Source of the DNA: Utricularia gibba
Taxonomy: Eukaryota; Streptophyta; Magnoliopsida; Lamiales; Lentibulariaceae
Length of the DNA stretch: 64,000 bases
Assembly (NCBI GenBank): GCA_002189035.1
Contig: NEEC01000011.1
Span: forward strand, 186,001-250,000
Direction of reading: 5' to 3'
Shown: positions 3,041 through 47,137 of the stretch, piece after piece
How positions within the stretch are numbered: the first letter of the stretch is position 1
Layout: each line of letters starts with the position of its first letter
Translations under genes and position numbers: made by a program
Notes under the pieces: model-generated
The model's database searches: none
Seen by the model: the letters and a program-made list of their open reading frames with translations, nothing else
What the model was told of the DNA's origin: nothing

Positions 3041-3757
3041 CTTTGCTGTATCGTATTGACAGATCATTCTTGTTTCCCACCACATCCTTGCTGGCAATGG
3101 CGCTAAATTTCATTCCACCATTGCTTGACATTGTTAAAGCTTTCCTGCTCAGTGACATTATAATTTACAATCTGCAGATAAAGGATGTAATATCAGGCAT
3201 AGGAAGAGCAGCCGAATACAATGAGCCCTAGTAGTAAGTAACTACTCGTTGTGCTTCTGAATCCCATTGCACGCAACAGTATCACCCAGAGACCCTCCAA
3301 ACTACCAAACCAAATCTAATAACTATATATACAAAAACACAGGATCCAATGTTCCATAGAGGCAGGCAACGAATAGCAACAAAACCCAATCCACAAAATG
3401 CGTTAGCATTTTCAAACAACAGGCGAACACAACAACCCAAACACAACCTTACAGTCTGGAGTAGTTTTATAGATTTCTCAATCTTGTTCCTCAGCGTTCG
3501 AATTTTCTGAACGAAAGTTGACAAGTTCAAGCAAATCCAGAACTGATAAAACATACATAAACCCAATCCATACAACCTCAACTCCAATTGTATCATAGCA
3601 CACTCAAAACAAACAATGGTTGGTTGATACCATAGCACATGAATAAAAAAACGACATATCTGGAAAGCGTAACAAAAGTTATAGGCTTACGCCAAGTCTT
3701 AAGAGAAGGCACAACATCATTTTCCCACACCAGAATAGAAGCTTCAACAGGTAGTCG
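3041..3757 (-). pseudogene. Decayed RABD/Rab1-type small GTPase pseudogene with introns retained
   Basis: Four exon remnants lie in gene order on the minus strand. (1) 3757-3691: preceded by TTGCAG, followed by GTAAGC; it holds 'DYLLKLL' and the P-loop 'SGVGK', with about 12 bases lost between them and frameshifts after. (2) 3506-3453: from AG to GTAAGG; it corresponds to Rab1 'KIRTVEQDGKTIKLQ' with indels. (3) About 3270-3213: a broken W-D-T-A-G-Q-E-R ... S-S-Y-Y-R-G-A-H-G region lacking the switch II core. (4) 3171-3041: starts after CTGCAG; it reads 'YNVTEQESFNNVKQWWNEI', then a stop, then in another frame 'VGNKNDLS'. Rab1/RABD GTPases act in ER-to-Golgi traffic. This copy cannot make a GTPase. 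Because introns remain, it is a decayed gene duplicate and not a retrocopy. Some drift obscures the exact exon ends. Confidence 0.8.
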
Positions 3758-4130
3758 CTGCAATGCAATCAAATTCTAGGATCGCAACATAATGTCCTCA
3801 GCTATTAAATACCCTACCGATAACGATCCAAATTGATCTCCAAAAATTAACAGCATCTAAAAAATGAATGTAGTATCATTTTCATATCTAATCCACCAGA
3901 ATACGTTTGACAAGACAAAATAACCAACGAGATCCCGCGAATTCGTTTTCAATGTAAAAGAAATACTATTCGTAACTGCTCAAAGGAAAGTGCAAGGTGA
4001 TGGATGGATCTAGCAACCACCGTACCCAACCCAGGATCTAAAAATAGCAGTACCACACAACACACAAACTTCCCTTCCCTCCTCGGACAATCAAAAAAAC
4101 GAGTTTACTATTCGTTTTAAACCTGAGAGA
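3758..4130. other. Intergenic spacer between Rab pseudogene and LIP2 leader
   Basis: No gene is recognised. On the minus strand it is upstream of the first recognisable Rab exon and could contain remnants of that gene's first intron or leader. Confidence 0.4.
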
Positions 4131-4943
4131 TTGAATCCTATTCCTTCCCCTCACCCAACCCCAATTCCTCCAGAGAAATCTGCCGAGGGACGGCGGAAAG
4201 CCCTAGGACTCGCGTCAGAACTGCGTACGCGTTGCTATTGTTCTTCTCCAGCCTCAAGGCCCGGTAGAACAGTAGGAACACTGTCAAGGGAAGATCTTCA
4301 GGTAGCATCCCCAGAACCATTCCCCAATTCTTTCTTTCGTTGCTAGTGTATGAGTTTTGGTTGTGGATTTTGGATTTTTTTAGCCAAGATTGATCATTTA
4401 GGAACAGATGAGAAGAAGAGCACTCGCGGTGAAGATACTGAACATAAACATCTTCGCTATCTTTGCAACAATGCAGGTTTCACTCGGCAATCCACCTCAG
4501 AAGCATGGTTTAGGAAACCCATTGTGGCACAGATAGGCAAGATGATTATGCATATGGTTTTGATTGGGGTGTTCAGTTTCTTCACCACCACCGCCTGTGC
4601 TCTTCTTCTCATCTGTTCCTAAATGGTCAATCTTGGCTTGCTTCGGGAATGAGTTGACTTGAAGGAACTCTTGAATCAAATCGTAATCTGGGATTTCCCT
4701 GTTAAATTAGGCCTTGAGGGTTCGATAATTCCATGCAACTTGAAGTTTGTGGAACTGACCCCCTTCCTGTTTTGTGATGGCACAGAAGATGTATATATTC
4801 TGAAAGGATTGCCACGAGTCCTTAGGTCACTTACCTGGAAATTCATTAACAATATCCTGTCCTCTTTCCTTTAAAGTTTAAACATTCCCGGTTTTCTGAT
4901 ATGGAGCATCTACAATCTGTATGATTCGTTTCTCCTTTTTCAG
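4131..4943 (+). promoter_or_regulatory. Probable 5' leader and 5'-UTR intron of the octanoyltransferase gene
   Basis: 4131-4340 is GC- and CpG-richer than its surroundings and contains a CCCTAG-type leader motif. A good donor (TTCAG|GTAGCA) lies at 4301/4302. A strong polypyrimidine acceptor (TTTTTCAG) ends at 4943, three bases before the ATG at 4947. I infer a non-coding first exon and an intron of about 640 bp. A diverged fold-back repeat lies inside that intron (separate entry). A 60-residue minus-strand frame at 4138-4320 overlaps the leader. It is protein-like in composition, but I do not recognise it. RNA-seq would settle the structure. Confidence 0.45.
4382..4638. repeat. Fold-back (inverted) duplication inside the inferred 5' intron
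   Basis: 4382-4423 and 4597-4638 are inverted copies of 42 bases with a single mismatch. Weaker similarity continues inwards through most of the loop to about 4490 and 4505. Read towards each other, both arms translate to the same peptide motif (AKIDHLGTDEKKST, then E-T-E-H and YLC-N), on the plus strand for the left arm and the minus strand for the right. Transcription would give a hairpin of about 100 bp per arm. Confidence 0.75.
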
Positions 4944-4946
4944 GAC

Positions 4947-5650
4947 ATGGCAGCAGTCCGAAGGCTGGTCATACGGAAGATGGGCAACGTCAACTATGCA
5001 GAGGCATTGAACCTCCAAGAGAAGCTGGTCTCAGAGCGGAAGCTGCACAGGATCCCAGACACTCTTCTCTCCTTACAACATCCACCAACTTACACACTGG
5101 GGAAACGGCGTACGGATCACAATCTTCTCAAATCTGAAATGGAGCTAAAAGCCATGGGTGCTGAAGTTCACTACACACAGAGGGGGGAGACGTCACCTTT
5201 CATGGCCCTCACCAGGCAGTTCTGTATCCCATTGTTTCTCTGAAAGAGCTTGGTTTGAAAGCTAGAAAGTACGTGGAGAAGCTGGAATCGACCATGATCG
5301 AACTCGCCTCGTTGTATGGGGTAGGTTGCCGAGCAGGAGGTGCAGGTGGTGAATGGGGTGTTTGGGTTGGGGAGAGAAAGATAGGTGCGATCGGGGTTCG
5401 CATTTCTTCTGGGATTGCTTCTCACGGTCTGGCGTTCAACATCAGTACTGATTTGAGTTATTTCCAGCATATTGTGCCCTGTGGGATTGCAGATAAAGAG
5501 GTAACTTCGTTGGAAAAAGAAGCTAAAGAAGCTCTTCCTTGCGAGCAAGTGATCGAGGACAGGCTCCTGGCTTGTTTTGTCAAAAATTTTGGTTACACCA
5601 ATGTTGTTGTTTCCTCCGATACAATCCATGAGTTCAATCCAAAACCATGA
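4947..5650 (+). CDS. LIP2: Octanoyltransferase (lipoyl-protein ligase B type, mitochondrial LIP2-like), frameshifted
   Basis: The product family (LipB/LIP2) moves the octanoyl group from acyl carrier protein to the lipoyl domains of H protein and 2-oxoacid dehydrogenase E2 subunits. This is the first step of mitochondrial lipoate synthesis. The N-terminal frame has 'VNYAEALNLQEKLV', 'LLSLQHPPTYTLGKRRTDHNL' and 'GAEVHYTQR'. The second frame continues with 'DVTFHGPHQAVLYP', then 'GVWVGERKIGAIGVRISSG' (conserved Lys), 'SHGLAFNIS' and 'VPCGIADKEVTSL' (conserved Cys). The two frames join at the R-G-G motif, where a run of six G (5182-5187) is one base short of the seven needed; the upstream frame then ends at 5243. 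Otherwise about 234 residues are complete, and no long plastid transit peptide is present, which fits the mitochondrial form. The ATG at 4947 fits because homology starts there, just after a splice acceptor. The indel may be an assembly error or a real null allele. Confidence 0.88.
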
Positions 5651-6547
5651 ATGGATTTTAGGGGTCGTAGGTTTGTCCATACTGTGGATTTGAATTATGT
5701 GGATCTCAAAACATTGTGTATACACCAATGCCCTTGAATACCCTCCTAAATCCACGCCACCTATATTCAGTAGTCACACGTCGCTAATCAATTGCACATG
5801 TGCACACTACGTCTAGGCTTCATGTGCTTATTGCCATTGTAACAATGCATCCGAATGCTTGTTTCCTGATTGTCGTTTTTACACACACGTGTTCCAATGA
5901 TTACGGTGAGTGGTATTACTGCGATAGATATATGTTTTCTATACTAAGGCATGTTCTATACATTGTTTTGTTTTATATTCTCATTTTTTAAGAATAAGAA
6001 TGGCTAAAAGGCTATAACACTAACAACATAAATGTTTTTATTTTTCTTTTTAAAATATCTTTATGTTAATTTAATATCATAAATTATTTGAAAACATGAT
6101 AACCAACGATCAAATTCATATAATATGTTCATCTACATCTTGTAATTCAATTTTCATAATAGAAGAACAAATGGCACAACAAATAGTGTTCTAGATATCA
6201 TATATTGAAATATGCTTGTTTCAATATCATTTTATTCTTCATTATTGACTAAAGATGATTTCTAAGTATAATGATAAATAATTTTATATCGTCTTAAAAC
6301 ATATTTTTTTATCACAATTTATAGTTGTTTGTATCCACTTTATACTTTATTTTCTTATTATTTTTTATTAATTTTCATATTTTATATTCATTTATGATGA
6401 CAATTATGTAAGTACATATAAACTGCCAAAATAATAAATAAAGATCATATTTACAGTAAATTAATTATTTAGAAATAATATAAAAATATTTGATAACAAT
6501 ATATAATAAAACGATTTTAGAAAAAATAAAAATAAAGACTTTGAATC
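5651..6547. other. 3' flank of LIP2 and AT-rich intergenic DNA
   Basis: 3' UTR followed by strongly AT-rich sequence with no recognisable gene. From about 6420 it begins to resemble weakly the first part of the LTR family seen intact at 16034 and 56784. Confidence 0.5.
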
Positions 6548-7592
6548 AAAGATCCACTATATTAATACTCACCCATATGTGTGTGTATAACTTGAGTAAT
6601 GGTCTACTTGCTCAAGTTTTAAGAGTGTTATTCTAAAGTATTGATAATACATAAATTTTTTTAATTTTATGCTATGAAAATTATAATCTTTTGATCATGT
6701 TTTAGGTGTTTATTTTATGATTTTAATTATTCTATAAAATTTAGAAAATATGTGATTTTTGTGTGTTGGTGGGCTAAACACAAGGATTTATCTCATTCCA
6801 TGTTCTAACCCAATTGTGATGCTAATAGCAGGTTTCAAAAATCAGGGAAGAAAACGAGGATTTTGTGTAGCGTCGTGTAGCAAGAGGAGCACCATAAAAG
6901 AAGAAGACAATGAGTGCACTTTCATGATGGAAAACTGCAAATCAGAGACAGAAATAGTACAGTTTTCAGAAAACAGTACTTGCTTTGGAAACTAAAAGGA
7001 GAAGATATTTTGGAAGAAAGAAAAGATTAGGGGAGGGAGCTTGAGCAACGAAGAACACACACGTGGAGAGCTCCTTCTACACGAACAACACCAACAACAA
7101 AAAAGAAGAAGGCAATTTTTATGGATAAACACTCTCCAACTTGAAAAACATCATCAAGAACCAGTCCAATGCTATTGTTCTGGGTTATGAACAGTAGCAG
7201 ATGGGGAACAAAACAAGTTTACTTTGTTTTTTTAGTTTGCTGAATTTTTCGTTTCTATGACTAACTATCTTATGATGTTTTTGATGTTTTCACCACTTTA
7301 TCTTAATGATATCATACTTTATTTTTCACATATGAGTAGTTAACTTAAGGATGACTTAAGGTGCAGAATGGTGATGTGGCGCTACAGTTCATAAGACAAT
7401 TGATCATTGTTTCTTAGCTTTTTTTTTTATCGTTTCTTGGATAGACCTAAGGGTGGAAATGGCTTCGCAACTTAGATGCTTAATTTAGAGGTAAATTAAC
7501 AAATCAAAGTGGGAATAGTAGGTGTTAGTCTTGAATAGAACTAGTAGAGTCGGGTAGACCTAATTCTATATATCTCGCACATGAATAGACCG
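6548..7592 (+). mobile_element. LTR fragment (TGATAA family) inserted in an older LTR fragment
   Basis: 6548-6641 matches the mid part of the LTR family at 16034 and 56784 (ACTCACCC, CTTGAG, a C/T-TGCTC-AAG-TTT stretch, GTGTTATTCTAAA). At 6642 a new LTR starts with TGATAATACATAAATT. It follows the copies at 27158-28319 and 49570-50865 through the shared 'GTAGACCTAAGG', 'TTTAGAGGTA' and 'GTAGGTGTTAGTC' stretches. It is cut off near 7592, so the right terminus and target duplication are missing. It carries no protein-coding capacity. Confidence 0.65.
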
Positions 7593-11402: not shown

Positions 11403-12640
11403 CTAGAATTTATTTTTGTTTTCCTCGCTTAAATGTACGTTTATATTTTCAAAAAGGGAAGCACAACGTGTTCGCATCCCTTGAACCGTAGTCTCATCAT
11501 AAAGCAATCTCCACTCCTCTTTAGATATTCTTTCGAAATAGTAATAGGCATCAATCGAATGTCTTGTTATCTCGCTCATGACCATACTGAAATCAGTTTT
11601 GGTTCTAACATAGGAAGCTCTTTTGATCCATTGTCCCAAACCGTTTGATTTCGAATGAACATACGATATACAATTTTTTCTAATATTGAAGTTGCACCAC
11701 CGATGTATGCCATAGGGAGGGCTAAAGCACTTGTAATTGTCATAAGCGTCAATAATCCTAGAAGCACGATCAGAGATGATACAGACATCTTTCCTTTGAC
11801 AAATAACATTATTAGTGAGATTATGGAAGAAAAAATCCCAATCCTCAAATGATTCTCCATATGCGAATGCATAAGCGATTGGGAAGACACAGTTGTTAGC
11901 ATCAACAGCAACGCAAACCAACAACTTGTAGTCGTATCGTCTGTACATGTGAGTTGCATTAATAAAAAGCATGGGTTGACAGTATCGAAATCCTTCAATA
12001 GCAAACCTTAAAGCCCAAAACATATTTCGGAACACCTTCTTCCCATCTAGATCACCACCATGATGTCATATCACAATTGTGACTGGGTTTTGAATGTGAA
12101 GCTTTCTTAGATATCGTAGTAGCTTAGTAGTAGAAGTTTTCCATGTTTCATAGCGAATCTCAAAGGCTCTTGTTATACAACCCTATGTCTGCCAATAGGA
12201 TATCTCATAATACCATTGATGCTTTACATAGACTTGCACAAACTTAACATTTATCTTTCCATCCAAAAGTGCAACCAAACGTGGTGCAATGAATTTGATT
12301 GTATGTTAACATTAGATGTCTCAAGATCAGCTTTAACATTGCAAATATGCGGTTCTACAAGCTTCGAGATCTTCCAAGTGTTAGATTGTGTCTCAAAACC
12401 TGCCCTGAGATAGAATGGACAGTTAGAAGTTTTTTCTTTTGCCTGACGACAAATGCAAGCATATGTCTTTTTATCACTTGCCATCATGCGGGTCTCTCAA
12501 TATGCTATAGAAGTATTGTAGAGAGCAACTGCATCAATAAGGGTCTGTTTATCTGGAAAATGCATCACTTGTCGTAATTGATTTGATTCCTTAGCATATG
12601 AATCATTGTGAACAGATATATCAATATCATTAGCATACAA
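11403..12640 (-). pseudogene. MULE (MuDR-type) transposase remnant
   Basis: Read on the minus strand, an N-terminal MuDR DNA-binding region comes first ('MHFPDKQTLIDAVALY', 'CPFYLRAGF', 'W-K-I-S-K ... PHIC'). 'KVFRNMFWALRFAIEGFRYC' then leads into the MULE DDE domain ('KLLVCVAVDANNCVFPIAYA', 'ISDRASRI', 'PPYGIHRWCNFNIRKN', 'ISKEEW'). The longest frame is 11403-12035; upstream parts lie in other frames with stops. The first catalytic acidic position, normally I-D-G-T-H, reads I-N-A-T-H here, so catalysis is probably lost even apart from the frame breaks. The C-terminal zinc knuckle (SWIM) is absent. No terminal inverted repeats were identified. Confidence 0.85.
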
Positions 12641-21199: not shown

Positions 21200-22330
21200 T
21201 GTTGGGTTTTTCGTAGACATTGTATGTCTCAAAAGCAGCAGAATTTTAAAAATTTTGATAAACTCGAAACGCAGATCTTGGAATACGGTACACATCAGAC
21301 GAAGGGATGTTCAAAATACCTTTCAGATGACTCCGTTGTTCACCAACCACCAATAGCAGATGGCCTCTATGGTATCCACACGTGGATCACTCCGTCGATA
21401 ATCTTCTCAAGGCTCTTGAATGCTCGTCGAATTTCTAAGGTGCTAGTAGAGAAAAACGCCTCCTTGTAGATCAGTCTCAGAGAGCATGAAGACCTTGGGG
21501 CAAATCTCAAGATTTGAAGCTTTTTGATAGATATTTTTTGTGACATATCAAATCATATCTCCATAAAAATCTTATCTGTTGGAGACATGTATATGTTCCA
21601 AATCATATCTATATGAGATCTTTTATTTTGAGTTAATCAATATTAATCTCAAAATAATTCTCTATTTAATTTATCCACTATACCAATTAATCTCATGTAA
21701 TTGTGTCATTCTATTTTATATCGATGAGTGACTCCATTATTGTGTGTGACCCTATAGGCTTCCTCAATCAAGGTCGTAATAATGGATTTGTTAATTAACT
21801 CTTAATTAGTCAAATCCATCATTATCGATCATGAGTGATGTCTAGCAACATATCATGATCCCCAAGATTAAAGAATAATCAGGTGAACTGATTGAGCCTT
21901 TCCATGACCAGCCACCATGGAATGAACAGCATTCATCATACTTATATCTCATTCGGTACCAGAACATGGGTGTGTGTCTTTGTGATGTATCGAACTTATA
22001 ATTGCATTCAAGCACTAACACTCAATGACCTACTCAAACAATTCGAGTGTCATTACACTAGGCCCAGGACTTACTGTTAGGGAACTCAAAGTGTGCCAGC
22101 TTATCCGTATTTGTGATATGTTTATTTCACAAACACTCTAGCCAGGGAGTTTTTTAACTTGAACATAAATGCTTGAAGAATCTCACATTATGATCTCATC
22201 ATAATTTCTATAGCACATAGATCAAGTAGAGGATTTTATCAATGATGTAAACTTGATCACAATTCAAGGTAAACATCAAAGGATAAGATTTGTCAATGAG
22301 TTGATTGTCTTTAGAACACATACATCAACA
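21200..22330 (+). mobile_element. LTR of the TGTTAG...CTAACA family, no target duplication
   Basis: It starts TGTTGGGTTTTTCGTAGACA and ends AGAACACATACATCAACA. It is collinear with 41976-43513 but lacks about 370 bases between two GTTAGG-like words (the segment 42897-43260 of the other copy). The flanks CAACC and CTGGG do not match. The left flank is Tat protease sequence and the right flank is gag of another Ty3 lineage. The LTR may therefore mark a recombination junction. Orientation is arbitrary. Confidence 0.8.
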
Positions 22331-28621: not shown

Positions 28622-28879
28622 AACTCTATTTACCTTAGGCCACATTTGGTTTGGTAGTTTAGGTGGGTTTCCACGTGGGTTTTAGAATAAGCACCCGTTT
28701 GGTGCATGGGTTTCAAGCAAGTAAAAATATACCCACCCGTTGCCTATATACCCGGCGGGAACACGCCGAGCTAGGGTTTAACTAAACCGAGGGAGGGGGG
28801 TGGTCGGTTTAGCTAAACAAGGGGTGAGGCTTGTTAATATACTTATATTAACATACTTGGTTGGGATGAATCTGTTAAT

Positions 28880-30150
28880 ATACTTATATTGAAAAACTTA
28901 TCATACGGGAAAAAAGTGCAAAAAAAGTATGCATCAACTGAGAACTTGAGATGTAGGTATTCCCTTACAAATAAGATTGCAAAAAAAGTTGAGTGTATTA
29001 GTAGGTTGGTGAGTGAAGTTAACTATGCATCAACTGAGAACTTGAGAATCAGTCGAGATGCCTTCAGTATTTTATGTCTATTAGAAAGGTTGGAAAATAT
29101 GTTACAGTTCTACAGATGGTTTGCATAAAAAAATGTTTTAAGGAATCTTAGTTCACCATAAAAAAATGTGGGTGAAGAATCATGTTTATAGGAGAAGCAT
29201 TGAAACTGAGTCTCGGTGCTTCCAAAAGATGTTGCATGCGGTCCTTTGCCTTTATGAGGTGCTACTAGATACCCAATAGCTGCTGGAGAAAGTGGATCCG
29301 AAGGAAAGTTCTAAGACTTCCAAGTAGACACATCTTTTATATATGTTTTTTTTAGAATGTAGCTATAATTGACTATGTAATTACATGGTTTTGTTGGGAC
29401 CATGGATAGTACATACATTGGTATATGAGTGAAGAAATCTGAAGTTGCAAGGTATAGAAATCGAAAGGGTGTGATATCCACAAATGTGTTGAGTGTATGT
29501 GATGAATACATGAAATTTATATATGTGCTTGCTGGGTGGGAGGGGTCTACTGCAAACAGTCAGGTGCTAAACGATGCTCTCTCAAGATCCAATGGCTTTC
29601 ATATACGCCCAGGTATATCACTTGTTTAGTCCTTGCATGAGATTCCAATTATTTTATGGAAATTAATATGTTATGACACAAGAACATATTACCTATGCGA
29701 TAATGGATATATCAATTAGGGCTTTTTGGCACCATACCATGGAGTTGGTTATCACATGAAGGATTGGGTACAAGGAAGTGGAGTACCTCAGAAATTGAAA
29801 GAGCTATTCAACATGTGGCACACATCAGCTAGAAATGTGATTCAACGAGCTTGGGGCTTGATGAAGATGTGGTGGGGTATGCCACGGTCGGCTAGCTACT
29901 ATTTAGTAGATACATAGAATCGAATTGTATTAGCATGTGCTTTGCTCTATAACCTCATTCAAAAGGAGATGGTCATCGATCCCCTAGAGGATGAGGTCCC
30001 ATTGCACTTCCAGAATGAAGTCAGGGAAACGAGTGATACAAAAGACGCCACATCGTCTATTGGAGGAAGTTAGGCATGGAATAGATGGCGTGACAAGCAA
30101 GCTCAGGTGATGTAAACCAAGTGGCTTGCAATTCACAGACATCGCTAATG
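28880..30150 (+). pseudogene. PIF/Harbinger DDE transposase remnant
   Basis: Collinear pieces of the PIF/Harbinger transposase: 'TENLRISRDAFSILCLLERL' (about 29030-29092), 'MLHAVLCLYEVLLDT' (29230-29275), then 'RYRNRKGVISTNVLSVCDEY' (29450) with 'FIYVLAGWEGSTANSQVLNDA' split over 29510-29580. 'APYHGVGYHMKDW' (29726), 'FNMWHTSARNVIQRAWGLMK' and 'NRIVLACALLYNLIQKEM' follow. A W-x-x-W-R-D tail ends near 30110. The second Asp-containing block (S-x-x-D) reads S-T-A-N-S, where D is usual, so a catalytic residue is lost. Stops and frame shifts occur between blocks. Confidence 0.9.
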
Positions 30151-31351
30151 TAGGCCTGCTTTAGATTGTTGTGTTATTGCTTTTTCTAAATGACCATTTC
30201 GAAACTATCATGACATTTGTACTAGATTTGTTAATCGAAACTTGTATGCATTAGAAAGATTGAACAAGCATCACATAGATACATATCAAATGCACAGTCA
30301 TAAATACATCAGGCATACTCTAACATGAACACTGATACTCATAGTATCCAGTGCTTGCTACAAGTAGTGGTGGGATTCTACCATTGTGATGTGTATTACC
30401 ATGAGATAACAAGGTATTACATGGAGGACCATTGGACACAGCATCGCGATTTGGGGACGAGGTGCTTCGTAGGGCCTATAAGACATTACATGCTTCGTAG
30501 CACTATGTGTTGCACTGTTTGGTGCTTCGAAATTTTGGAAAGACATGAGTTTGAAGTTGCCCCATATTATCGGGGTATAATTGGTAGAACACCACTACTC
30601 CCTTTTACCAAACACCATGAGTCGTAAAATCCAATGCTTTTGAATGCCTGTGTTACACTACGCACAGAGCAGCACTGCATGCTACCTTATCCAGTATTCT
30701 ATTTTTCAATAAGAAATGAGTTTAAATGATGCAATTATCTAGCATTAAATGCGCTGGGAGGGTGTTAACCACATTGGGCTATCAATTCTCACCTATGCAC
30801 AATAAAGGCATTTGACATTTCTCACTTTCCAAAACAACTATATTAATCATGCTCTTACACCTCCTTGCTTCCGCCATACGTTCAACAGCACCGCATAAAC
30901 ATGATTCCATCATGCCCCATCAGAAGAGCTTCGCGACGTGAGGCAGAATAGTACGTGACCTATTCATATGCATTTCAGAATCTTCCTTTCTTTCGATAGT
31001 GTGATTTCTGTTTTTCTTTTGATAGATGTTGATGTGTGAAAAACTACATGCCTGCTTTTCAATTCCAAATGGATACACAATGTTCTAAAACACCAGCTAG
31101 AGTTGGAGCAATGATATTTGCCTTCAGCACCGAGCACTTTTAGTGTGGATTGCGACTGCCCCCGCCTCCTTTCATGATGTAGATACTTGCTGCACTCCAG
31201 ATCCCACTCTCATACTCTACTCCACGTTATGTGCTGCACATACTCGCGTTTTTGCATATTTGTGAAGTGGAGAATATATCTCCGAAAATGCATGTCTTCT
31301 TTGCAGTCTCCATGTGTGTGCAATGTAAGAGGAGGCTGCACTATTCTCTTT
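30151..31351. other. Interior of the Harbinger-type element, no gene recognised
   Basis: Sequence downstream of the transposase. Repeated words such as GGTGCTTCG and GCACTGTTTGG occur at 30470-30530, and related TGCACTG/GTGCTTC words reappear at 34690-34860. The frame at 30325-30627 shows no family features. Confidence 0.45.
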
Positions 31352-32208
31352 ATGGCAAATTGTTGGGTTTCTCGTAGACATCGTATGTCTCAAAAGCAGT
31401 GGAATTTGAAAAATTTTGAGAAACCCCAACACAGATCTTGGAATACGGTATACATCAGACATAGGGATGTTCAAAGTACCTTTCAGATGACTCCGTTGTT
31501 CACCAACCGCCAATAGCGGACGGCCTCTATGGTATCCACACATGGAGCACTCCGTCGATAACCTTCTCAAGGCTCTTGAATGCTGGTCAAATTTCTCAGG
31601 TGCTAGTAGAGAAAAACGCCTCCTTGTGGATCAGTCTCAAAGAGCACGATAACCTTGGAGCACATCTCAAGATCTGAATCTTTTTTTATAGATATTTTTG
31701 ACATATCAAATCATATCTATATGAGATCTTTTATTTTGAGTTTAATCAATATTAATCTCAAAATAATTCTCTATTGATTAAACTCAAAATAAAAGATCTG
31801 ATATAGATAAGATTTGGAACATACATATATCTCCATAAAATGAGATCTTTACAGAGATTTGATTTGATATGTTACCAAATATCTATCAGAAAGATTTGAT
31901 CTGTAGAGATTTTCCATATCTTTGTTCTCTCTGAAATTGATCCAAAAATGGACGATTTTCTCTACTAGCACTTGAGGAGATCGACCATCATTTTTCTTCC
32001 TTGAGAAGACTATCAACAGAGTGCTTCATGCGTGGATACCGTAGAGGCCATCTACAATTGATGGTCGGTAAACAACGGAGTGTACTGAAAAGTATTCTAA
32101 GAATCGCCTTATCTGATTCATAATGTATTGCAAGATCTGCATTTGGGGTTTCTACAAAAGCTTTAAATTCCACTGCTTTTTTGGCATGTGATGTCTACAA
32201 GAAACCTA
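31352..32208. repeat. Fold-back of two LTR halves (TGTTAG family), head to head
   Basis: 31352-31750 is the left part of the LTR seen at 41976-43513, in plus orientation. 31773-32208 is the same left part in minus orientation, ending GAAACCTAGCA. At the centre, 31724-31750 and 31773-31799 are perfect 27-bp reverse complements around a 22-nt spacer. The outer parts are diverged. A transcript would form a long imperfect hairpin of about 400 bp per arm. No target duplication was identified. Confidence 0.82.
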
Positions 32209-32209
32209 G

Positions 32210-34505
32210 CATTAAAAACGTTAGAAGCGCATATCATTTTTGTATGGGTATGCCCACCCAACGATGCAAAATGGCCAACAAGATTGACCATGTTAGAGAA
32301 TGTAGGACACCCATCAGGTAATCACATGCAAATACTTTAAATATTCTAAATTCATGTGCATCAAATGGCATGTTTTTTGTCGTCCTGTTGTAGGAGTTGT
32401 AGGAGTGGAGGTCTATCCAAAGCGTGCAGCAAAGCGGTTATTAAATTTGTTCTCTAGCATAACAAAGTCTCTTGAGGACATCTTGCCACCCTTTTTTAAT
32501 ACCCCTAAAACACAACACCTGTGGTGTGGAGCCCTTCGACACCGTACAATGTAAGAGTATGAACAATGATGCGGAGGATGTGGTCCATGAAGAGGGTGAA
32601 AACGTGCACCCATAAGGCAACAGTAATAGACCAAAGCCGATCTTGACACTAGACGATGGGTACGTGTTAAGTGTCATTTTCTCACTATTTCTTAGGGTTT
32701 TTTTTTGCTTAATTGTGATTAAAAATATCTAATTAGGAGTCTATAATATTAGATATAGGTTTTAATCTAGTTTAGGGTAATTATCCTAAATCTTGTATTT
32801 TATCTAATAATTTTGCTAGTTTAATTAAGTTTTTCTAGAGGCGTACACATGGCAGGAAGTGAGAGAAAGAGGGAAGCAAATGGCGACAAAATGGATCTTC
32901 CCGAGATGACACTCCTTTGATTTTGGAAGACTGCAAACGCCTAATCATGAGCTTTGACGTGCGGAACATGGGACTCTCTGACAAGAGAAATCAATACGTA
33001 CCAGTCAGAGCAGACGTTGGCTTGCAAGTCATTCCAGTCTAGCAGAACCAGAGGAACACGAAATCTAAGACAAAATAATCCAGCTCAGTTAAGTTCGGAC
33101 AAGTTTAGTTTTACTTTCAGTTTAATTTAAACTTTTGTTTCTCTCTTTAGAGGATTTTCCTCTTGCTTCTCTTTAGAACCTTGTTTTCGTTTTCTTTAGT
33201 TTGTATTGCCGTTCGCGGCTAGAAACTCTCGTTTCTAAGTTGGGATACTCCCAGATCTATGTTTCGTATGTCTTCACGCGACTATGTTACAGTCTTTCTA
33301 TAACAGCCCCTTATTTAACCAAAGAAGAGTGAAGACGCAATAAACATAGCTGGGCAAGATTCCAAACTCTGGAGCATTCGCTTATTTGAGGTTCATCGCT
33401 TAGGTTTATTTCTTTTGTTTGTTTACAACCCTCTTATCCCCTTACTCAAGCTTCATCATTTACATTTCTTGCACTTTTACTTTACAAAACCGATTATAAA
33501 TCATGATATTTGTATTCGGTGTACATCACCTTTCATTGAAAAACCACTCCCTACATTCGACACCCGTACTACGCTTTTGTGTTTTACGAGTTTTAAAAAT
33601 ATGAAAATTTGTTGTGGAAACGACACGCATCAGTATGGCATTGCCACTATAAAGTACACCGAGTTGGAGAGATTGTATGTCGAGAATCTTGAACTCTATT
33701 GACGACTCGCTTGGCATGAGTGCACAATCCCACCACGGAAGTTATTAATATTTGATGTAAATGGCGTACTTGAAGACATTGTGTATCCTTAGGATGTCAA
33801 GTGGGGAACTCTGAGGCCAGATGCGGTTATTTATAGGCAAAATGGTAATGTGCTAAATTCAACCATGTGCATCCATCACGATGCGATACTCTCAAGTTTG
33901 ATATCAGTTTAATATTTTTAGCATGTTTCAATACTATTATTATAGTTGTAGTGTATCTCCGACTAGGAGCACGTGAGTTGATTATTTGGTGGGGTAAGAT
34001 TGATGCATGATTATGTGGTGGGGTCCGCATGATACTGATGCTTGATTTTATCAATAACAAATTTCAATGAACAATTGTATGATGTGATCTAGTGGTTAAT
34101 AGGACCTGTAGCCGCTAGCAAGCTCGTCTTCAAATGGGATGGATCCTGGACTATGGACACTACTTGTCCAGTGAATGACAACAGGAACAACATCGTTAAA
34201 CTAAAGCTATTGACTCATCGTCTTAATACACTACTCATTTACGATGTGCCATACAAGTCACTATGCAACCCGGTGAGTGTCTCATCACTCTCTTGCACCA
34301 TGCCATTGTGTATTTGGTGATGGTATACTTTCATTGGACAACCGAAGAATGCCATATTCCCAACAACCTACAAGTACACCACGGACAACAATTGTTTCCT
34401 TGTTCGAGGGTTGATATCAGGTCGTTCATGGAAGTGCTCATTGACATAATGGATGTTACCATGTACGTCGATTGTCGACGAGTAGGTCAACATCCAATAA
34501 ACAAG
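32210..34505 (+). pseudogene. FCP1/NIF-like HAD phosphatase pseudogene, copy 2, split by a solo LTR
   Basis: Same family and order as copy 1 (8850-10149). An N-terminal exon after TTGTAG at about 32392 has 'RLLNLFSSITKSLEDI' and 'WCGALRHRT' (compare 'WCGTSR' in copy 1). After the solo LTR (32665-33632) come 'IKYTELERLYVENLELY', the nucleophile block 'LLIFDVNGVLEDIVYP', then a stop. Next are 'LVFKWDGSWTMDTTCPVNDN', 'NTLLIYDVPYKSLCNP', and a C-terminal 'SFMEVLIDIMDV ... GQHPI' ending near 34505. The second acidic block is I-Y-D instead of I-D-D. Stops, frame changes and the LTR make it non-functional. It lies between the transposase and Myb/SANT remnants of the Harbinger-type element. Confidence 0.72.
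32665..33632 (+). mobile_element. Solo LTR (TGTTAAGTGTCATTTT family) inside the phosphatase pseudogene
   Basis: Starts TGTTAAGTGTCATTTTCTC and ends GGAAACGACACGCATCA. Flanking 5-mers are GTACG and GTATG (one mismatch). Homologous to 39442-40788 and 43637-44925 but about 300 bp shorter through internal deletion. No internal element genes. Confidence 0.85.
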
Positions 34506-35476
34506 TAACACCTGCTATGGAAGCACTACAAGGTTATTGTGGTAGACGACATACCTTTAATTTGCTTGAATCTTGCATGAACGATGGTATTCTAACTTTT
34601 CTATTATGTGATCAAACAACTATTGCGAATGCACCGCATGTATTAAGATCCGGTGCCATATCTGACAACTGCACAGTGTGTCCATATGCAGTGCTTCATT
34701 ACACTCAACACCAATGCGATGCTCTTCCATCACTTCTTGATAGCACTGCACTGTAATGCATCCTCGTTCAAAGCATTGCGTTTATGAATTAGTGCTTCAA
34801 AGCATAACACCGTGCTTGCTCATACACACTGCACTGTAATGTGTCTTCTAATATAGTGCTCACGCCTTGCACACAACCCCGCCACTTCAATCTAGTGTTG
34901 CATATACAAGTTACATATATTCATCTCCCTACTACATTTTCATGTGCAATACCATACATATTTGCTTAGAAAATGTTTAGAAGATGAAATACATCCAGTC
35001 CATGAGTCCAACAAAATGCCAAAAGTGCACAAATGATTTAAGATCTAGTGTTATATGCTAGAATACGCACAATCAGCTCTCTTTCGCAATCAATCGAGGC
35101 AAGAAACTAGCACAACCTCACCTGGTTGAAGCTAATCATCTCCGCTATGGTAAAACGTTGGATTGCAGAAAGTTGCAGCAATATACCTCTCATGCTCATT
35201 GTCCACCAACTCTTGCGCTTGCTACACCACTGTTAATCCCAAGTGATGTAGCTCCTTGCATGTGCGCACATTCAGCTCCTTTAATTCTCTCAGGAATTGC
35301 ATATCATCATCGATTCCCCTCGGCCCCCGTTCGCTTCATCCAGACCGCCGCAAGTAGTCGATGCTGTTATGTGACTTGGAGTCCCGACTCTCAGGGGTGA
35401 CATTCACACCCTCTGTGCCACAATCAAATGGGTCACAAGATTTGTCCGTTCATATGCTATCCAGTGATATCTGGAT
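34506..35476. other. Interior of the Harbinger-type element, no gene recognised
   Basis: Contains repeated TGCACTGTAATG words (34745-34840). The reading frames at 34472-34756 and 35158-35400 show no family features. Confidence 0.4.
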
Positions 35477-36046
35477 CTAGGAGACAATCCGAAGATGCAT
35501 CCAAATTCTCAGCAATGTCTTCGATGAATTTTCTCTTCCTTGTCGCACTATATAGGTCATAGTATTATCTCCATTAGCTCGATCCTTTCTAAAGATTTCC
35601 CACTACTCCATGTAATACGGCCACGCTTTGTATCTTAGTACACACAGCCTCAATGCATGCTGGCATAACCACACGACAAGCTTGGGATATAACACCGCTG
35701 ACTATAGGACATACGTACCTGGTCAATCTCCTTCAAGGCCTCCTCGTCAGAATCTACAGTGTAGGTTAGCTCGCTAAAATCAGTGCCCGACCTTGATGAA
35801 AAAATCTACAGGGAGGTAGTAGTCTTTTTTCTATCTATGCACCTTATTGAATATGTGCGGGTGTGTACGGATGTGAGTTCCTGGGCAGATTTAAAAGAAC
35901 TCTGTCTCTAGCGCTCGGTGATACCCACCCCTGAAACCTTTCTCAATTTTCCAACCTTCTTTTACTCTTTGCTTCAGAGCATGCAAAAAGTCCTTCTCCT
36001 CATCTGGCTTCCAAGCTCATTTTGTTGTTTTAGTGGAGTCTTCCAT
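35477..36046 (-). pseudogene. Myb/SANT-like protein of a PIF/Harbinger element, remnant
   Basis: From an ATG at 36046 the minus strand reads 'MEDSTKTTK', a stop, then 'AWKPDEEKDFLHALKQRV', 'EGWKIEKGFRGGYHRALE' and, after another stop, 'ICPGTHIRTHPHIFNKVH'. This is the Myb/SANT-like DNA-binding domain of Harbinger accessory proteins (W-x-x-E-x-x-x-F-L...G-G-Y...P-H-I-x-x-K-x-x-x-W-K). Near 35600, 'WEIFRKDRANGDNT' matches the conserved 'IFGKDRATG' end of these proteins. In active PIF elements the Myb/SANT protein partners the transposase for DNA binding and nuclear entry. This copy has several stops. Confidence 0.78.
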
Positions 36047-36453
36047 GACATTTGGGCTATGCATACTTGCGGTCTATACTTGAGGAAAGAAAATAGCAAT
36101 AAAAAAGTAAAAGCATTGACAACTTACGACAAATAAACTCTATAATCGATTCTGAAATCAACAAATTTCAAGTGAGAAACTCCACACAAGGAACGGCATA
36201 CGCAATCTACAGTTAACTCATGGCCTAAAGCCCTCACTTACCGGTTAAATCCCTGAAGATCTCGTTGCGCAGCAGCACCGCATCCCCATGGATGATGTCG
36301 GTGGTGAAAGGGGTAAACAAATTGTCACAAAAAGGTGTAATAATTTTGGGAAAGCCTATATTGGTAATTTCATGTGAACATTTATTATAAACCTAATTTT
36401 ATAACCACGTACCAAGCATATTTTCATCTTAAACCCAAAAAATTTAAACCCAT
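36047..36453. other. Spacer between Myb/SANT remnant and nested LTRs
   Basis: No gene seen. It corresponds to sequence upstream of the minus-strand Myb/SANT start inside the Harbinger-type element. Confidence 0.4.
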
Positions 36454-38811
36454 TTTTGCATGTTGCTTCCTCAACAAATTTTAATTTAGAAAAACATAAA
36501 ACACAATAAAGCGTAGTACGAGTATTGATCTCAAGGAGTTGAGTTTTGTGAAAAGTGTTTTACAATAAACTTTTAAAAATTGTTGCGGGTTTATAAAAGG
36601 GTGTTTTTGAAACACAGAAATAAAAGATACAACACAAGTAATGAACCTTGACTAAGGGTTGCAATTCCTGAGAATTGGATTCCATTTCCTCCTTTTGTCT
36701 ATCCTTGCCTCGGCTTTCATTAATTACTTCTGAATAGTCTACTTTCTAATGCACTCTGATCGACAAGGAGACATGGGAATAGCCTCATATGATTCCCTCT
36801 TAGATAATTCAGAAGACAAGAGGATTGTCATCCATTGCCTTCAAAATCGAATTATGCGCGTTTATCTAGCTGTTGCCAATGACCAATGACAGGTATGAGG
36901 TCACTACCTATCCACTGTCGTGGTACCTCGATCACAAACCATTCGCTACGCCTCTCGAACTATTAGGGATGGAGATGGTGTTCTTCACCTTGCTCTGCAT
37001 CAAAATCCGTAAGGAAGGGTCTGCTACTCATTGACCATGACTAGATGATGTTATAGAACGACTGCAACAAGAGGCATAGAAGTATGCAAAATCTGGAATG
37101 AATTTAGCAAAGAACCGAGATTGATGCTCAACACTTAGAAGGAAACTTCATTTATTCCCCGAAACTAAAAGGGTTTAACCACGAATGGCCATGAAAACAG
37201 AAAAAAAAAGGAAAGCTAAGGTGTTCTTCTTTCGTGGAGAGCAAGAACCAAAAGTTCAAGTGATAAACGAAAAATTCACACGTCGTAAATGTAAATCTCT
37301 CCTATCAAATAAATTTATAACCTAATACACATTCTACCATAAAACAATTATGAGCATAGTGATTAGGGTCGAACACGAAGAGCAGGTGCTTGCTATGTGA
37401 AAGTTGATGCATGAAATTAGTGTCACGTTGGTAAAATTGGTCTTAGCTAGGACTAAGGCAGAACTACGATGGAATGCAATAAAGAAAAATAACAAGTTTT
37501 GGGATTCGATAGTTTCTGGAATGAAATGAGTGATGCCTTGGGACTCTTAGAGAATGTATGCCTATCACTAAACAAGCTCACATAAATCATAAATCATACA
37601 ACTAACTCACAAGATCTAGGTCTACCCGAATTCTTGTTTTTCCCCATAATCTTTGGTCTACCTCTAATTAGGGTTGTTAAGTTGGGTTTCACTACTTCAC
37701 CCTCTAAGTGCTTAGTCACTCATGCTTAAGGTAAACAAAAGTTGAAAAGAAAACATCACCCACAGTGTGCTCATTTCACACTCGAATACCAGAAAGCAAA
37801 CAAGCGAAAAATGTGAAATGTCAACAGAAACTAGAAACGTCGCTAGCTACTCTTAACTAGGAGTAATAATTGTTAGAAAAGAGAAAATAATGTTCAAGCA
37901 TGAGCTTAGTTCCTGTTTGTCTTCCTCCTTCTTCCTCCCCAGAAAAACCTTCTTCAAATAGCTGTTCGTGAGTCTCCAATGGGGAGATCTGTCTTCTCTC
38001 TCATCTTCCCTCCCTTTTTATCCAAAATCTCACTTTTTCATCTCCTTGGAATTTGTGTGTACTCTTTTTCAGACTTCTGCCACCTTCTCTGTCACTACAC
38101 TGTTCATATTCGGCTTCTTGGGATTTGTGTTGCGACCTGTGCTGCATTGCTCGAAGGAAACTATTAGAAGATTGGGACTAAATCACAGATTTAGTCCCAA
38201 CTAAGACTAAATTGGCACTACTACGATACTTATGTGCAAAAATATAGAACTAGGCAATAAAGCTTAATTTTTGTAGCACAAAATGAGTAAATTCCATGTA
38301 TTGAGTCACTCAAAAATATGTGTTATCATCAAGTCTCAAAACAAAGTACAAAAAAGTCTGAAAGATTGTTCCCAAAATGTTCTAAGTTGGTTTTAATTCA
38401 CTCCCCACATGCATTTAGGGTTTAAGGTTTAACTTTCTTTTTCCCCTCCCATCATTCTTTCTGTCTTGCATGTGCCACCGGCTTTCCCATGCATGCAAGT
38501 AAGTGCCCAATTGTTGCTACAAACTCTAACATGTAAGTCAAGGGTCCTAACTAATGTCAGTCTTCTGCCCACCAAAGTCATGTCAAAGGCACCAAACGTC
38601 AGTATCTAGTCTTCTACAACACTCCAAGCCTGCTTCTTGACATTTTGGGTGAAAGTGCACGAAAAAAGACAAAAAAATATGTGAAAAATACAAAAATAGG
38701 ATTTTTCTGAAAAAATAGAATACTTATCAATATAAATCCTAAATTGGACGACTTAACAATTAATTAGCACGTAATAATACATAATAAATAATTAGAAAAT
38801 GACACTTAACA
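36454..38811 (-). mobile_element. Solo LTR (TGTTAAGTGTCATTTT family), minus orientation, with nested LTR
   Basis: The right end AAAATGACACTTAACA is the reverse complement of the family start, and the left end corresponds to the family end. Flanking 5-mers are CCCAT and CCCAC (one mismatch). Removing the nested LTR (37261-38333) leaves about 1.28 kb, equal to the 1,289-bp LTR at 43637-44925. The left boundary is approximate because its first bases have drifted. Confidence 0.8.
37261..38328 (-). mobile_element. Solo LTR (TGATAA family), nested
   Basis: TGATAAACGAAAAATTCAC ... AATATGTGTTATCA, flanked on both sides by TCAAG (37256-37260 and 38329-38333), a perfect duplication. It is inverted relative to 26283-28621 and inserted in the solo LTR 36454-38811. 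It is 1,068 bp long with no coding content. Confidence 0.92.
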
Positions 38812-38920
38812 CCCACGATCCAAACACGAATAATCTTCTAAACCCATCAAATCCATTTATCTAAACTTAAATAAACTAAACCCGGGTTTAAGTGTTACCC
38901 AACAGCCAAACATGGCCTTA

Positions 38921-39441: not shown

Positions 39442-40788
39442 TGTTGAGTGTCATTTTCTTACTAATCTTTCGATCATTTTAGATGTTTAAATGTAATTAG
39501 GATTGTCCTATTGTAGGTTTATAATATAAGTTTTAGGTTTTATCTAGATTAGGATAATTATTTTAATTGATGTGTTTTATCTAATATTTTTTTGTCTAAT
39601 TTTGTTTAAGTTTTATTAGGGGTGAATACGTGGTCAAAATTGTGAGAAAGATAGCATCACATGGCGACAAAATAGATATTCCTGAAGTGATATTTCCTTG
39701 ATTTCCGGAAGACTCTAGACATCTAATGATGAGCCTTGACATGAGGTACACGAGAGTCTCAAACAGAAGACATCACTAGCGTACTAGTGTCTGAGCAAGA
39801 GCTTTCTCGCAAGTCACTCCAATCCATAACAAGATTATGAACACATAAAAACTCAGACAGAGTAGTTCAATTTGAGTTTAGACTTTCATTCTAGTTTCAG
39901 CTTTAGTTTAGACTTTAGTTTGTCTGTTTAGAGGATTTTTCCTCTAGCTTCTCTCTAGAAATTGTTTTCGTTTTCCTACTTTGTATGACCATTAATGGCT
40001 AGAAACTCTTGATTCTGTATGGGGACACTTCTAGTTCTACGTTTTGCAAGTTATTCTCCATTTCTTCTTTGAATCTGATAGGGTTTTATATATCTACGTA
40101 CGATTATGTTACAGTCTTTCTATAACACCCCCTTATTCAAGATTCATAGTTAGATGATAACTACCTATAAGTTTTGAAAAGGAGCAAGGTGGAAAGCACC
40201 TCATGCCCTATTGATTCGAGGGAGACAATGTTTTGTCGTGGCTGTACTTCAATATCAATGAACCGATAGTGACCTTGTATTTAAACTCATTGGGCCATTG
40301 GTAACACTCGAGCACATGCACACAATTTGACAGTGAGGGTATGATGTGATGACCTCTTATCTTCCCGTTCATCCATGGGGGAGCAACATCGGGTATTCTC
40401 GCGCCTCCTTGCAAAAGAGTGTAAGTAAGAGTTAGCAATTCCTTCATCCTATTACTGAGTACTTAAGAAGATCAAAAAATAGTAGAAATGCGACAAAAGT
40501 ACTTGGATAGGATTCCAATCTCAAGAACATTCTCTTTATTTAAGGTTTATCGCTTAAGTTCCTTTCATTTCAATTGTTTGTTGACAATTTGCTTTCCCAA
40601 GCTTCATTATTTACGTTTCTAACATCTTTTATTTCAAAAACCTGTTTACAAATCGTAACAGTTGAATTCGATGTAACTTCACCTTTCATTGGAAAAGCAA
40701 CTCCATGTGTTCAACACCTGTACTATGCATTTTGTTTTTTACGAGTTTTAAATATATTTAAAATTTGTTATGAAAACAACATGCATCA
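39442..40788 (+). mobile_element. LTR (TGTTGAGTGTCATTTT family)
   Basis: Starts TGTTGAGTGTCATTTTCTTAC and ends near ACAACATGCATCA. It is collinear with 32665-33632 and 43637-44925. The flanking 5-mers (ACTAC and ACCAT) do not match well, so target duplication is not established. No primer-binding site or gag follows it. Confidence 0.75.
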
Positions 40789-41975: not shown

Positions 41976-43513
41976 TGTTAGGTTTCTCGTAGACATCGTA
42001 TGTCTCAAAAGTAGCGGAATTTTAAAAATTTTCAGAAACCCCCAACGCAGATCTTGGAATACGGTATACATCAGACTAAGGGATGCTGAAATACCTTTCA
42101 GATGACTCCGTTGTTCACCAGCCGCCAATAGGAGACGGCCTCTATGGTATCCACACGTGGAGCACTCCGTCGATAACCTTCTCAAGGCTCTTCAATGCTG
42201 GTCGAATTTTTCAAGTGCTAGTAGAGAAAAACGCCTCCTTGTGGATCAGTCTCAGAAAGCATGAAGACCTTCTTGGAGCAGATCTCAAGATCTAAATCTT
42301 TTTCGATAGATATATGGTAACATATCAAATCATATCTCCGTAAAGATTTTATCTTGTGGAGATATGTATATGTTCCAAATCTTATCTATATATGATCTTT
42401 TATTTTGAGTTTAATCAATATTTAATCTCAAAATAACTCTCAATTTAATTTATCCACTTTACATCGTTCAATATTTATCTTGTACTCTCAATTCAATTAC
42501 ATCTCATGTAATTGTGTCATTCTATTTTATATCGTTGAGTGACTCCACTATTGTGTGTCACCCTATAGGCTTCTTCAATCAAGGCCGTAATAATGGATTT
42601 ATTAATTAACTCTTAATTAATCAAATCCATCATTATCGATCATGAGTGATGTCTAGCAACATATCATGATCCCTAAGATGTAAGAATAATCAGGTGAACT
42701 GATTGAGCCTTTCCATGACCAGCCACCATGCAATGAACAGCTTTCATCATACTTATATCTCATTCGATACTAGAGCATGGGTGTGTGTCTTTCTGATGTA
42801 TCGAACTTATAATTGCATTCAAGCACTAACACTCAATGACCTACTCAAACAATTCGAGTGTCATTACCCTGAGCCCAGGACTTACTGTTAGGCTTTGATG
42901 CAATTACTTGAGATATGATCTCATCGCTAACATGAGTGATGAATCCTTTATTGATCAATCAACTATCTCCAACCTTATGGAGTCACATCCCTACTCATCC
43001 ATACTAGGCAAGCCATGGTTAGACTCCCACTAGCAATGAGCGAAAATGTGAGCTTAAGATTAAGATAACTTTGTTGACCTCAAGTCTAAGCTTACTTGCA
43101 CGGCTGTCATATTCGAGATCTTGCTACTGACACTTGGTTAGCTTCTCATAGTAGCATCTCGAAGATGAGTCATCTAGTGAATCGATTCTCTAATCGACAC
43201 CCACACATAGGTTCTAGTAATCTCATTACGTCAATTGTGAGAACCATTGTATAAACAGTTTAGGGAACTCAATGTGTGCCAGCTTATCCGTATTTGTGAT
43301 ATGCTTATTTCACAAACACTCTAGCCAGAGAGTTTTTTAACTTGAACATAAATGCTTGAAGAATCTCACATTATGATCTTATCATAATTTCTATAGCACA
43401 TAGATCAAGTAGAGGATTTTATCAATGATATAAATTTGATCACAATTCAAAGTAAATATCAAAAGATAAGATTTTCCAATGAGTTGATTGTCTCTAGAAC
43501 ACATACACTAACA
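41976..43513 (+). mobile_element. Solo LTR (TGTTAG...CTAACA family)
   Basis: Perfect terminal inverted hexamer TGTTAG/CTAACA and a perfect target duplication GTAAA (41971-41975 and 43514-43518). Length 1,538 bp. Homologous to 21200-22330 and to both arms of the fold-back at 31352-32208. No internal retrotransposon genes, hence a solo LTR. Orientation is arbitrary. Confidence 0.93.
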
Positions 43514-46345: not shown

Positions 46346-47137
46346 ATGATGAGTTCTATCATCGATAATAACAATGCTCAATCCAAATCACAGCGGGATT
46401 GGAATGCTGAAGAGGAATGTCTTCTGGTTGTGGTGTTCAATGAAATAATTGATAGTGGTTGGAAGAGGAAAAATGGCTTTTAGAATGGGTACTACGTTGC
46501 ACTACATAAGGCATTGAAGAAACATAAACCAGATGCTACTTTGATAGCAATCCCTCATATCTCATCGAAGGTTAAGATTTGGAAGAATGAATACTGTATG
46601 ATTATGGATGCACTCACATGATCTCAAACTAGCTAGAATAGCACCACTCAAATGATAGATGCCTCAAATGAGCTATGGGATGAATTGGTTAGTATGTTAA
46701 TGGGTGATATTATTATTAACTAGTTACATGAGTTCTTTATGCTTGGTGTTCTAAGAGCTTATATAATTTCTGGGAGATTGTCAATTGTTCTAATAATCCA
46801 ACAAAGTTTTGATGTGAATGTGATTATCATTGCTTATTAGGCTAACATCAAGGGATTGAAACAGTTGAGATATAGAGTGTGGCATTTTTTTAAGGATTGG
46901 ATTGATATTTTCGGTTCAGAAAGAGGTACTAGGAAGAATGAAGTAGCTCATGAAGAGACTTCTAACCATGCTTCAATTGTTGCTTATGATACTGAGTATA
47001 AATCAAATCCACCCAACATTGAACTAGGATCACCCCAAAGTCAAATTTCTGTTTTTGTAGCTGATTCAAAAACCACTAATGCATCTCATTGTGAAGGCAA
47101 ATCATCTATTAATGCTAACAATAGTGTGGGGCCCTAA
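46346..47137 (+). pseudogene. Myb/SANT-like protein of a second PIF/Harbinger element
   Basis: One frame from the ATG at 46346 reads 'QRDWNAEEECLLVVVFNEII', 'DSGWKRKNGF', a stop, 'NGYYVALHKALKKHKPDATL', 'IPHISSKVKIWKNEYCMI' and 'ASNELWDELV', the Myb/SANT-like DNA-binding domain. After further stops it continues to a polar Ser/Asn-rich tail ending at 47137. At least four in-frame stops are present. With the minus-strand transposase tail at 48289-48650 it shows the same convergent arrangement as the larger Harbinger-type element. Confidence 0.85.

Follow-up and report, generated by a model that had tools for sequence, protein, structure and literature searches.

A third gene, encoding Transposase_28 and HAD domains, in a PIF/Harbinger transposon family of Utricularia gibba and in hAT elements of the same genome

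Introduction

PIF/Harbinger transposons are defined by a DDE_Tnp_4 transposase, a Myb/SANT protein, short terminal inverted repeats (TIRs) and a 3-bp target site duplication of the TWA type, as set out in PMC4482050. Two genes are attributed to all known plant and animal PIF elements in PMC9710019, and the same two-gene rule appears in PMC4482050. Accessory genes are described for other DNA transposons. According to PMC12730594, fungal elements carry a TET/JBP dioxygenase gene common to several superfamilies including Harbinger and hAT, and Phytophthora HarbingerS and MuDR families, named in the same article, carry a SET methyltransferase gene. PMC13317346 describes the accessory genes VANC and KIU of Arabidopsis Vandal MULEs, KIU being joined to a captured Ulp1 domain and VANC acting via hypomethylation. 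Here we report on a stretch of 64,000 nucleotides of the Utricularia gibba genome (G000:C255:186001-250000, hereafter the window), in which positions 28638-38917 are a single decayed PIF/Harbinger element, later broken by three insertions, that carries a third gene, hereafter gene 2, between its transposase and Myb/SANT genes.

An initial annotation of the window had read this region as a PIF/Harbinger-type element with an FCP1-like phosphatase pseudogene. It attributed the pseudogene either to capture of a host gene by this one element or to an uncharacterised Harbinger lineage that carries such a gene, and named two abutting elements plus an unrelated pseudogene as the alternative. Among the open-licence papers listed in literature searches, no title or abstract start points to gene 2 in Harbinger or hAT elements.

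Results

The window element belongs to a three-gene Harbinger family with a DDE transposase gene (+), a Transposase_28-HAD gene (+) and a Myb/SANT gene (-). An uninterrupted copy of 6,371 bp, found at positions 301-6671 of locus L001, holds the transposase (+), the phosphatase-like gene (+) and the Myb/SANT gene (-) between identical 14-bp TIRs, GGCCACGTTTGG at each end, with TTA on both sides. The genome searched amounts to 100 Mb in 516 contigs, and all counts given below are within this one genome. The left terminus of the window element (193 bases) matches at least 40 places, and the HAD stretch 33680-34520 gives at least 62 rows that merge into at least 39 loci. Counts of neighbours around HAD loci and terminus matches are lower bounds, being made among the matches listed. 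On that basis, 28 of the 39 HAD loci have the left terminus or the transposase upstream on the same strand; the left terminus lies upstream on the same strand within 6.5 kb at 18, a transposase row upstream within 6 kb at 24, and at 13 the next 4 kb downstream hold a Myb row in opposite orientation. Controls (a strand flip and shifts of +50, -50 and +200 kb) gave 0-2 per feature. Seen from the other end, the HAD stretch follows downstream of 18 of the 40 left-terminus matches listed.

Twenty-one family copies (L001-L021) were read. All were picked by their HAD match (L001-L017 by the terminus match too) and are therefore informative on gene order, not on frequency. Order and strand in L002-L021 agree with L001 across much of the length. 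Large parts are missing in several copies (e.g., L005, L006, L008, L011, L012, L014 and L017), the left part is missing in L018 and L019, and an extra or inverted piece is present in L003, L006, L009, L017 and L020. Further copies with both ends exist, L001 among them, and FCP1-like sequence lies between transposase and Myb/SANT genes in L001 and in other collinear copies.

Gene 2 consists of a Transposase_28 domain (PF04195) followed by a HAD/FCP1-like domain (PF03031), and is larger than the initial annotation saw: the HAD exons it had noticed do lie between the two other genes, but they are part of a Transposase_28-HAD gene rather than of a plain FCP1 gene. Among 22 copies (the window element and L001-L021), divergence is low in three element blocks and high in between, and the middle block, which in L001 reference coordinates covers about 2640-4440, exceeds the HAD domain in length. 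Transposase_28 was matched in the 5' part of this block (L008, E 8.4e-12; L016, E 3.3e-8). The joined HAD exons of the sister copy L004 match PF03031 (NIF) with E 1.4e-9 and 38.3 bits against a cut-off of 21.8, and weakly match UBLCP1 in PDB (E 2e-4); single HAD exons compared with Pfam matched nothing, and a PF03031 scan of the unspliced genome gave no row at the element copies. The order and spacing of the two domains and the splice-like GT...AG ends suggest that both reside in one gene.

Gene 2 is constrained about as strongly as the transposase. Median pairwise ratios of non-synonymous to synonymous divergence (dN/dS), computed with 19-21 copies per exon set and stop codons skipped, are 0.34 for Transposase_28, 0.36 for the linker (210 pairs) and 0.33, 0.29 and 0.35 for the HAD exons. 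The corresponding medians are 0.43 and 0.37 for the transposase and 0.26 for Myb. Decay after insertion raises all these values. Reading shifted by one base gave 0.64-1.06 (0.64-0.89 in gene 2), in part below 1, yet well above the true frame. Since its dN/dS is similar to that of the transposase, gene 2 appears to have been kept as a working gene. All eight exon sets are present in 12 of the 22 family copies.

The same arrangement extends beyond the window's family. A HAD protein query gave 221 matches from 150 of 402 candidates scored, and the rows listed merge into at least 90 loci, of which 42 reach 55% identity and 48 fall short of it. Among the matches listed, 13 of these 48 divergent loci are in a Harbinger arrangement, with a transposase upstream or a Myb downstream within 6 kb (shifted controls, 1-3 of 90 loci), and at 26 a Transposase_28 row in the same orientation lies no more than 5 kb upstream. 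Two further subfamilies are exemplified by bounded elements with the gene order of the window's family, L025 (C1:5811727-5819655; TAA/TAA) and L026 (C98:2909769-2917268; TTA/TTA). For a transposase tree, 34 sequences were taken (12 of the 22 window-family copies, L025, L026 and 20 others), of which two were dropped as too short. Ten elements with a same-strand Myb and one without a nearby Myb row form one group (86/94). The clade of HAD carriers adjoins four elements without a HAD row, three of them with a convergent Myb row; the one of these four that was read contains a transposase and a Myb, with no Transposase_28 or HAD frame.

Gene 2 also occurs inside hAT elements. Among the 48 divergent HAD loci from the matches listed, a hAT dimerisation domain precedes the HAD sequence by 1.8-3.4 kb in the same orientation at eight, follows it by 0.86-1.25 kb in the opposite orientation at five, and follows it in the same orientation at one. 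Controls with shifted positions, run on 87 loci, gave 0-2, and one C244 locus is counted in both lists. Three bounded elements enclose gene 2: L031 1529-6415 (4,887 bp; GATGTAAC/GGTGTAAC), C402:1730682-1736332 (5,651 bp; ATTGAATC/ATCGAATC) and C375:567238-575240 (8,003 bp; GGAAAAAC/GGGAAAAC). Each has TIRs and an 8-bp duplication whose copies are alike at 7/8, and PF05699 rows lie within the TIRs, which places them in the hAT superfamily. An automatic TIR search at three hAT loci yielded weak AT-rich pairs, the true ends being later located by sequence. Just beyond the hAT element of L031, a frame at 1065-1337 (+) resembles the end of the L025 Harbinger Myb gene, a possible sign that this hAT inserted into a Harbinger copy. 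At four hAT-linked HAD loci (C1:4837140, C414:470281, C213:3039907 and C3:5136928), the HAD exons are followed after 1.3-2.3 kb by a second Transposase_28 domain in the same orientation. Among other superfamilies, a MULE row is found within 5 kb at 5 of 87 HAD loci, in mixed arrangements, and the CACTA profile PF02992 had no match in this genome, nor in controls.

A gene 2 tree of 25 rows (10 of the 22 window-family copies, eight divergent Harbinger copies, and five and two of two hAT types) gives good support to the window's family, to each hAT type and to each of two divergent Harbinger groups. In this tree hAT type 2 joins the L025-type Harbinger copies (96/94). This topology would call for one or more transfers of gene 2 between the superfamilies, or else for the same fusion having been gained in parallel. 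A host relative with a HAD/FCP1-like domain (L066, C4:3539180) shares with gene 2 the motif I DxNGxLADI, whose third residue is Asn, the WSSR motif II and the last intron position; the shared motif I and intron position point to capture of genomic DNA, not of a processed copy. L066 differs from gene 2 in that no Transposase_28 domain is seen in the 2.6 kb read, and it stands on a long separate branch of a tree that holds this one host row. Among the matches listed, 84 of the 129 Transposase_28 rows in the genome are not followed by a HAD row in the next 4 kb. Of these 84, ten are preceded on their own strand, at a distance of up to 5 kb, by a hAT row and four by a MULE row, the shifted MULE control also giving four. 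Transposase_28 is reported in 23% of Retand long terminal repeat (LTR) retrotransposons in PMC6317226, and the domain is therefore not specific to DNA transposons.

The ends of the window element are GGCCACATTTGG, starting at 28638, and GGCCATGTTTGG (inverted), ending at 38917. As initially annotated, TTA flanks each (28635-28637 on the left and 38918-38920 on the right), and the same TTA/TTA bounds L001. The left TIR GGCCACATTTGGTT (28638-28651, +) matches the window's other end at 11 of 14 bases, compared with 14 of 14 in L001; the right TIR lies at 38904-38917 (-). The transposase remnant reported at the left is equally real: it spans 28850-30130 (+) and matches DDE_Tnp_4 (PF13359) above the Pfam cut-off at 29402-29953 (+; 50.9 bits, 4 stops). 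At 440-1700 of the L001 reference, divergence is low and 14 of 19 overlapping test windows agree in the phase of the most variable codon position. The Transposase_28 exon of gene 2 occupies 31072-31359 (+), with PF04195 at 31126-31305 (30.8 bits, 2 TAG), and is truncated by an insertion at 31361. A linker exon remnant, approximately at 32395-32660 (+), is collinear with L001 3322-3734. The HAD (FCP1/NIF-like) exons as a whole were traced at 33652-34541 (+), the corresponding exons of L004 matching PF03031; they are E1 33652-33852, E2 33951-33983 (broken), E3 34069-34272 and E4 34401-34541. The Myb/SANT remnant on the opposite strand, also part of the initial annotation, lies approximately at 34990-36050 (-), as judged from peptide alignment and collinearity with L001, and aligns with the family Myb peptide over 107 of 107 codons with 3 stops. 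In the profile scan this remnant gave no PF12776 row; collinear sister copies do match PF12776, e.g., L001 (C507:588866-589150, -) and L004.

Self-comparison of the window revealed repeats nested in repeats around the element. Three of them, seen as later insertions, interrupt it: a repeat at about 31361-32206, not in L001; a repeat at about 32665-33628 (+), read as LTR-like, related to stretches at 39442-40788 and likewise not in L001; and a repeat at about 36456-38805, recognised also by comparison with L001 and interrupted in turn by a second repeat (about 37257-38330). The halves of 31361-32206 match 21200-22081 and 41976-42892 in opposite orientation, as in a foldback-like repeat of about 0.85-0.9 kb. 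Elsewhere in the window, 46400-46684 (+) matches Myb_DNA-bind_3 (34.5 bits, 3 stops) and probably belongs to another Harbinger-type element, and a MULE transposase domain (PF10551, 45 bits) lies at 11673-11969 (-) in an open frame of 220 aa.

The target site duplication of the family was studied at 18 loci. The script found both ends in 11 and identical triplets in 8. Manual revision removed L002, L007 and L014, where the left match falls on a similar internal sequence and not on the end, and it brought in L010, L011 and L016, each of which exceeded the script's limit by one mismatch. By this manual reading both ends are again present at 11 loci, and the triplets on the two sides agree at 9 of them (TTA 3, TAA 2, TAG 2, TCA 1, ATA 1; 5 of 9 TWA), the exceptions being L003 (TAA/TGA) and L017 (CTA/TTA). 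Adding the window element and L001 brings the agreement to 11 of 13. The family's duplication is therefore 3 bp long and, as it reads today, usually though not invariably TWA.

Discussion

We regard it as very probable that the window element represents a three-gene Harbinger family whose gene 2 is under constraint, is shared with hAT elements and was presumably kept because it helps the element. The element has the DDE_Tnp_4 transposase, the Myb/SANT gene, the short TIRs and the 3-bp TWA duplication of PIF/Harbinger transposons, and departs from their two-gene description by a third gene common to its family. Its presence inside hAT elements also makes gene 2 look like an accessory tool that transposons keep and share.

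A number of observations weigh against this reading. Among the matches listed, 22 of the 40 left-terminus matches have no HAD match within 6.5 kb; 19 of these also lack a transposase row within 4 kb downstream, as expected for deleted derivatives or unscored copies, and the other three have a transposase row and no HAD row. A HAD row lies downstream of just 35 of the 137 merged Harbinger transposase rows listed, and gene 2 is therefore not general to the Harbingers of this genome; a Myb row without a HAD row accompanies 22 of the 137 on the opposite strand and 24 on the same strand. Support for the HAD-carrier clade in the transposase tree (84/84) is not strong, and a grouping of all Harbinger gene 2 copies is not rejected (AU p 0.08). 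Just three of the eight hAT loci read are bounded on both sides, L028 showing the left end only, L023 the right end only and L024, L029 and L030 no end. At least one stop occurs in the exon sets of all 22 family copies, the window copy having 19. Nor did a search of this genome with the joined flanks of the window element or of L001 find an exact empty site. For the window element, none of the places listed, from 40 scored candidates out of 552, runs across the junction. Thirty-eight of the 40 rows are repeats that resemble the left flank only, ending 8-16 bases before the junction, and the remaining two come from the element's own flanks. For L001, both flanks can be aligned with one place on C213 (347 bp at 64%), and an 18-bp gap spans the junction; this suggests an element-free relative of the site, though not the exact target.

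The catalytic motifs speak against an ordinary phosphatase. The PF03031 profile is matched above its cut-off in L004, and the DxDx(T/V) signature with both Asp is absent: all 33 legible copies have Asn as the third residue of motif I (D-x-N). The first Asp is kept in 29 of the 33 and lost in L006 and L019, and it is Tyr in both copies of the L026 subfamily (L026 and L072; C98 and C451). Motif II reads SSR in 25 of 32 copies, and the DD pair of motif IV is present in 17 of 26. In the HAD superfamily, losing the second Asp weakens turnover. With this Asp replaced by Asn, the initial label of phosphatase is uncertain, as is the activity of the gene 2 product as a phosphatase.

Other origins of this arrangement were weighed. 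Were gene 2 a host FCP1 gene taken up as Pack-type cargo by this single element, the motif and last intron position of C4:3539180 would be accounted for. The other copies and two more subfamilies nevertheless have the gene at this position and in this orientation, its dN/dS is well below 1, and the element copies bear a Transposase_28 exon unseen in the 2.6 kb of host gene read. A one-off capture is very improbable, being refuted by the shared position of the gene in copies with different flanks; it is the other initial suggestion, an uncharacterised Harbinger lineage carrying the gene, that the collinear copies and the two further subfamilies support. The nested repeats of the window could in principle bring together two abutting Harbinger elements and an unrelated pseudogene, but L001 holds the same contents in one piece between identical TIRs and TTA/TTA, and other collinear copies agree; this alternative is refuted and we give it next to no credence.

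Gene 2 might also be a passenger, inherited by the element lineage and of no use to it. The missing second Asp of motif I, the loss of the first Asp too in one subfamily, and a sister transposase lineage that manages without gene 2 all fit a passenger; a constraint similar to that on the transposase, and retention in three Harbinger subfamilies and two hAT types, do not, and we consider it unlikely. The Transposase_28-HAD gene might otherwise be a mobile unit of its own, e.g., of an LTR element, inserted repeatedly into Harbinger and hAT elements, as the domain's occurrence in Retand elements and the many Transposase_28 rows without HAD would allow. Its position and strand are constant in each family, however, the gene 2 copies of each element family form their own clade (two clades for the divergent Harbingers), and no LTR ends were noticed around gene 2, although no dedicated search was made; such a unit is very improbable.

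The history we favour is that of an accessory gene retained by transposons. An intron-bearing host HAD gene of the DxNGxLADI type would have been joined to a Transposase_28 domain within a transposon, the fused gene would then have passed between Harbinger and hAT elements, and it would have been retained because of its benefit to the element. By analogy with TET/JBP in fungi, SET in HarbingerS and VANC/KIU, the likeliest, though tentative, role would be that the product acts in trans in the nucleus on a host phosphoprotein, by binding it or removing its phosphate, whereby silencing would be relieved or element expression raised; it is less likely that it regulates the transposase or the Myb protein or takes part in target choice. 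The fuller proposal, in which Harbinger and hAT elements share a dedicated gene for Transposase_28 and an atypical HAD domain that moves between superfamilies and counters host silencing or transcription control via a phosphoprotein, is more speculative still and rather unlikely as a whole.

PIF/Harbinger elements being described as two-gene transposons, a third, selected gene in three subfamilies and in hAT elements indicates that an accessory enzyme-like gene can be retained by plant DNA transposons and exchanged among them. Gene 2 offers a sequence handle on how plant transposons cope with host control. It may also account for some plant Transposase_28 annotations ('putative gypsy type transposon'), and some FCP1/HAD-like genes annotated in plants may, as a caution, be transposon genes.

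Compared with the two-gene PIF/Harbinger elements (PHIS), the window's family is alike in transposase, Myb/SANT gene, TIRs and 3-bp duplication and adds a third gene in between. VANC and KIU are likewise accessory genes of a plant DNA transposon, KIU with a captured enzyme domain, but belong to the MULE superfamily; the likeness is one of description only. Phytophthora HarbingerS also combines a Harbinger with a chromatin-related enzyme gene and differs in that its enzyme is a SET methyltransferase and its hosts are oomycetes, again compared by description only. A close parallel is provided by the fungal TET/JBP transposons of PMC12730594, where one accessory enzyme gene is found across superfamilies including Harbinger and hAT; there the enzyme is a dioxygenase, in another kingdom, and here it is a HAD domain with an added Transposase_28 domain. 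Gene 2 is, like TET/JBP, an accessory gene common to two transposon superfamilies, whose role we infer; if that role holds true, it would be the plant counterpart of fungal TET/JBP, with a HAD chemistry that we had not met in a transposon context.

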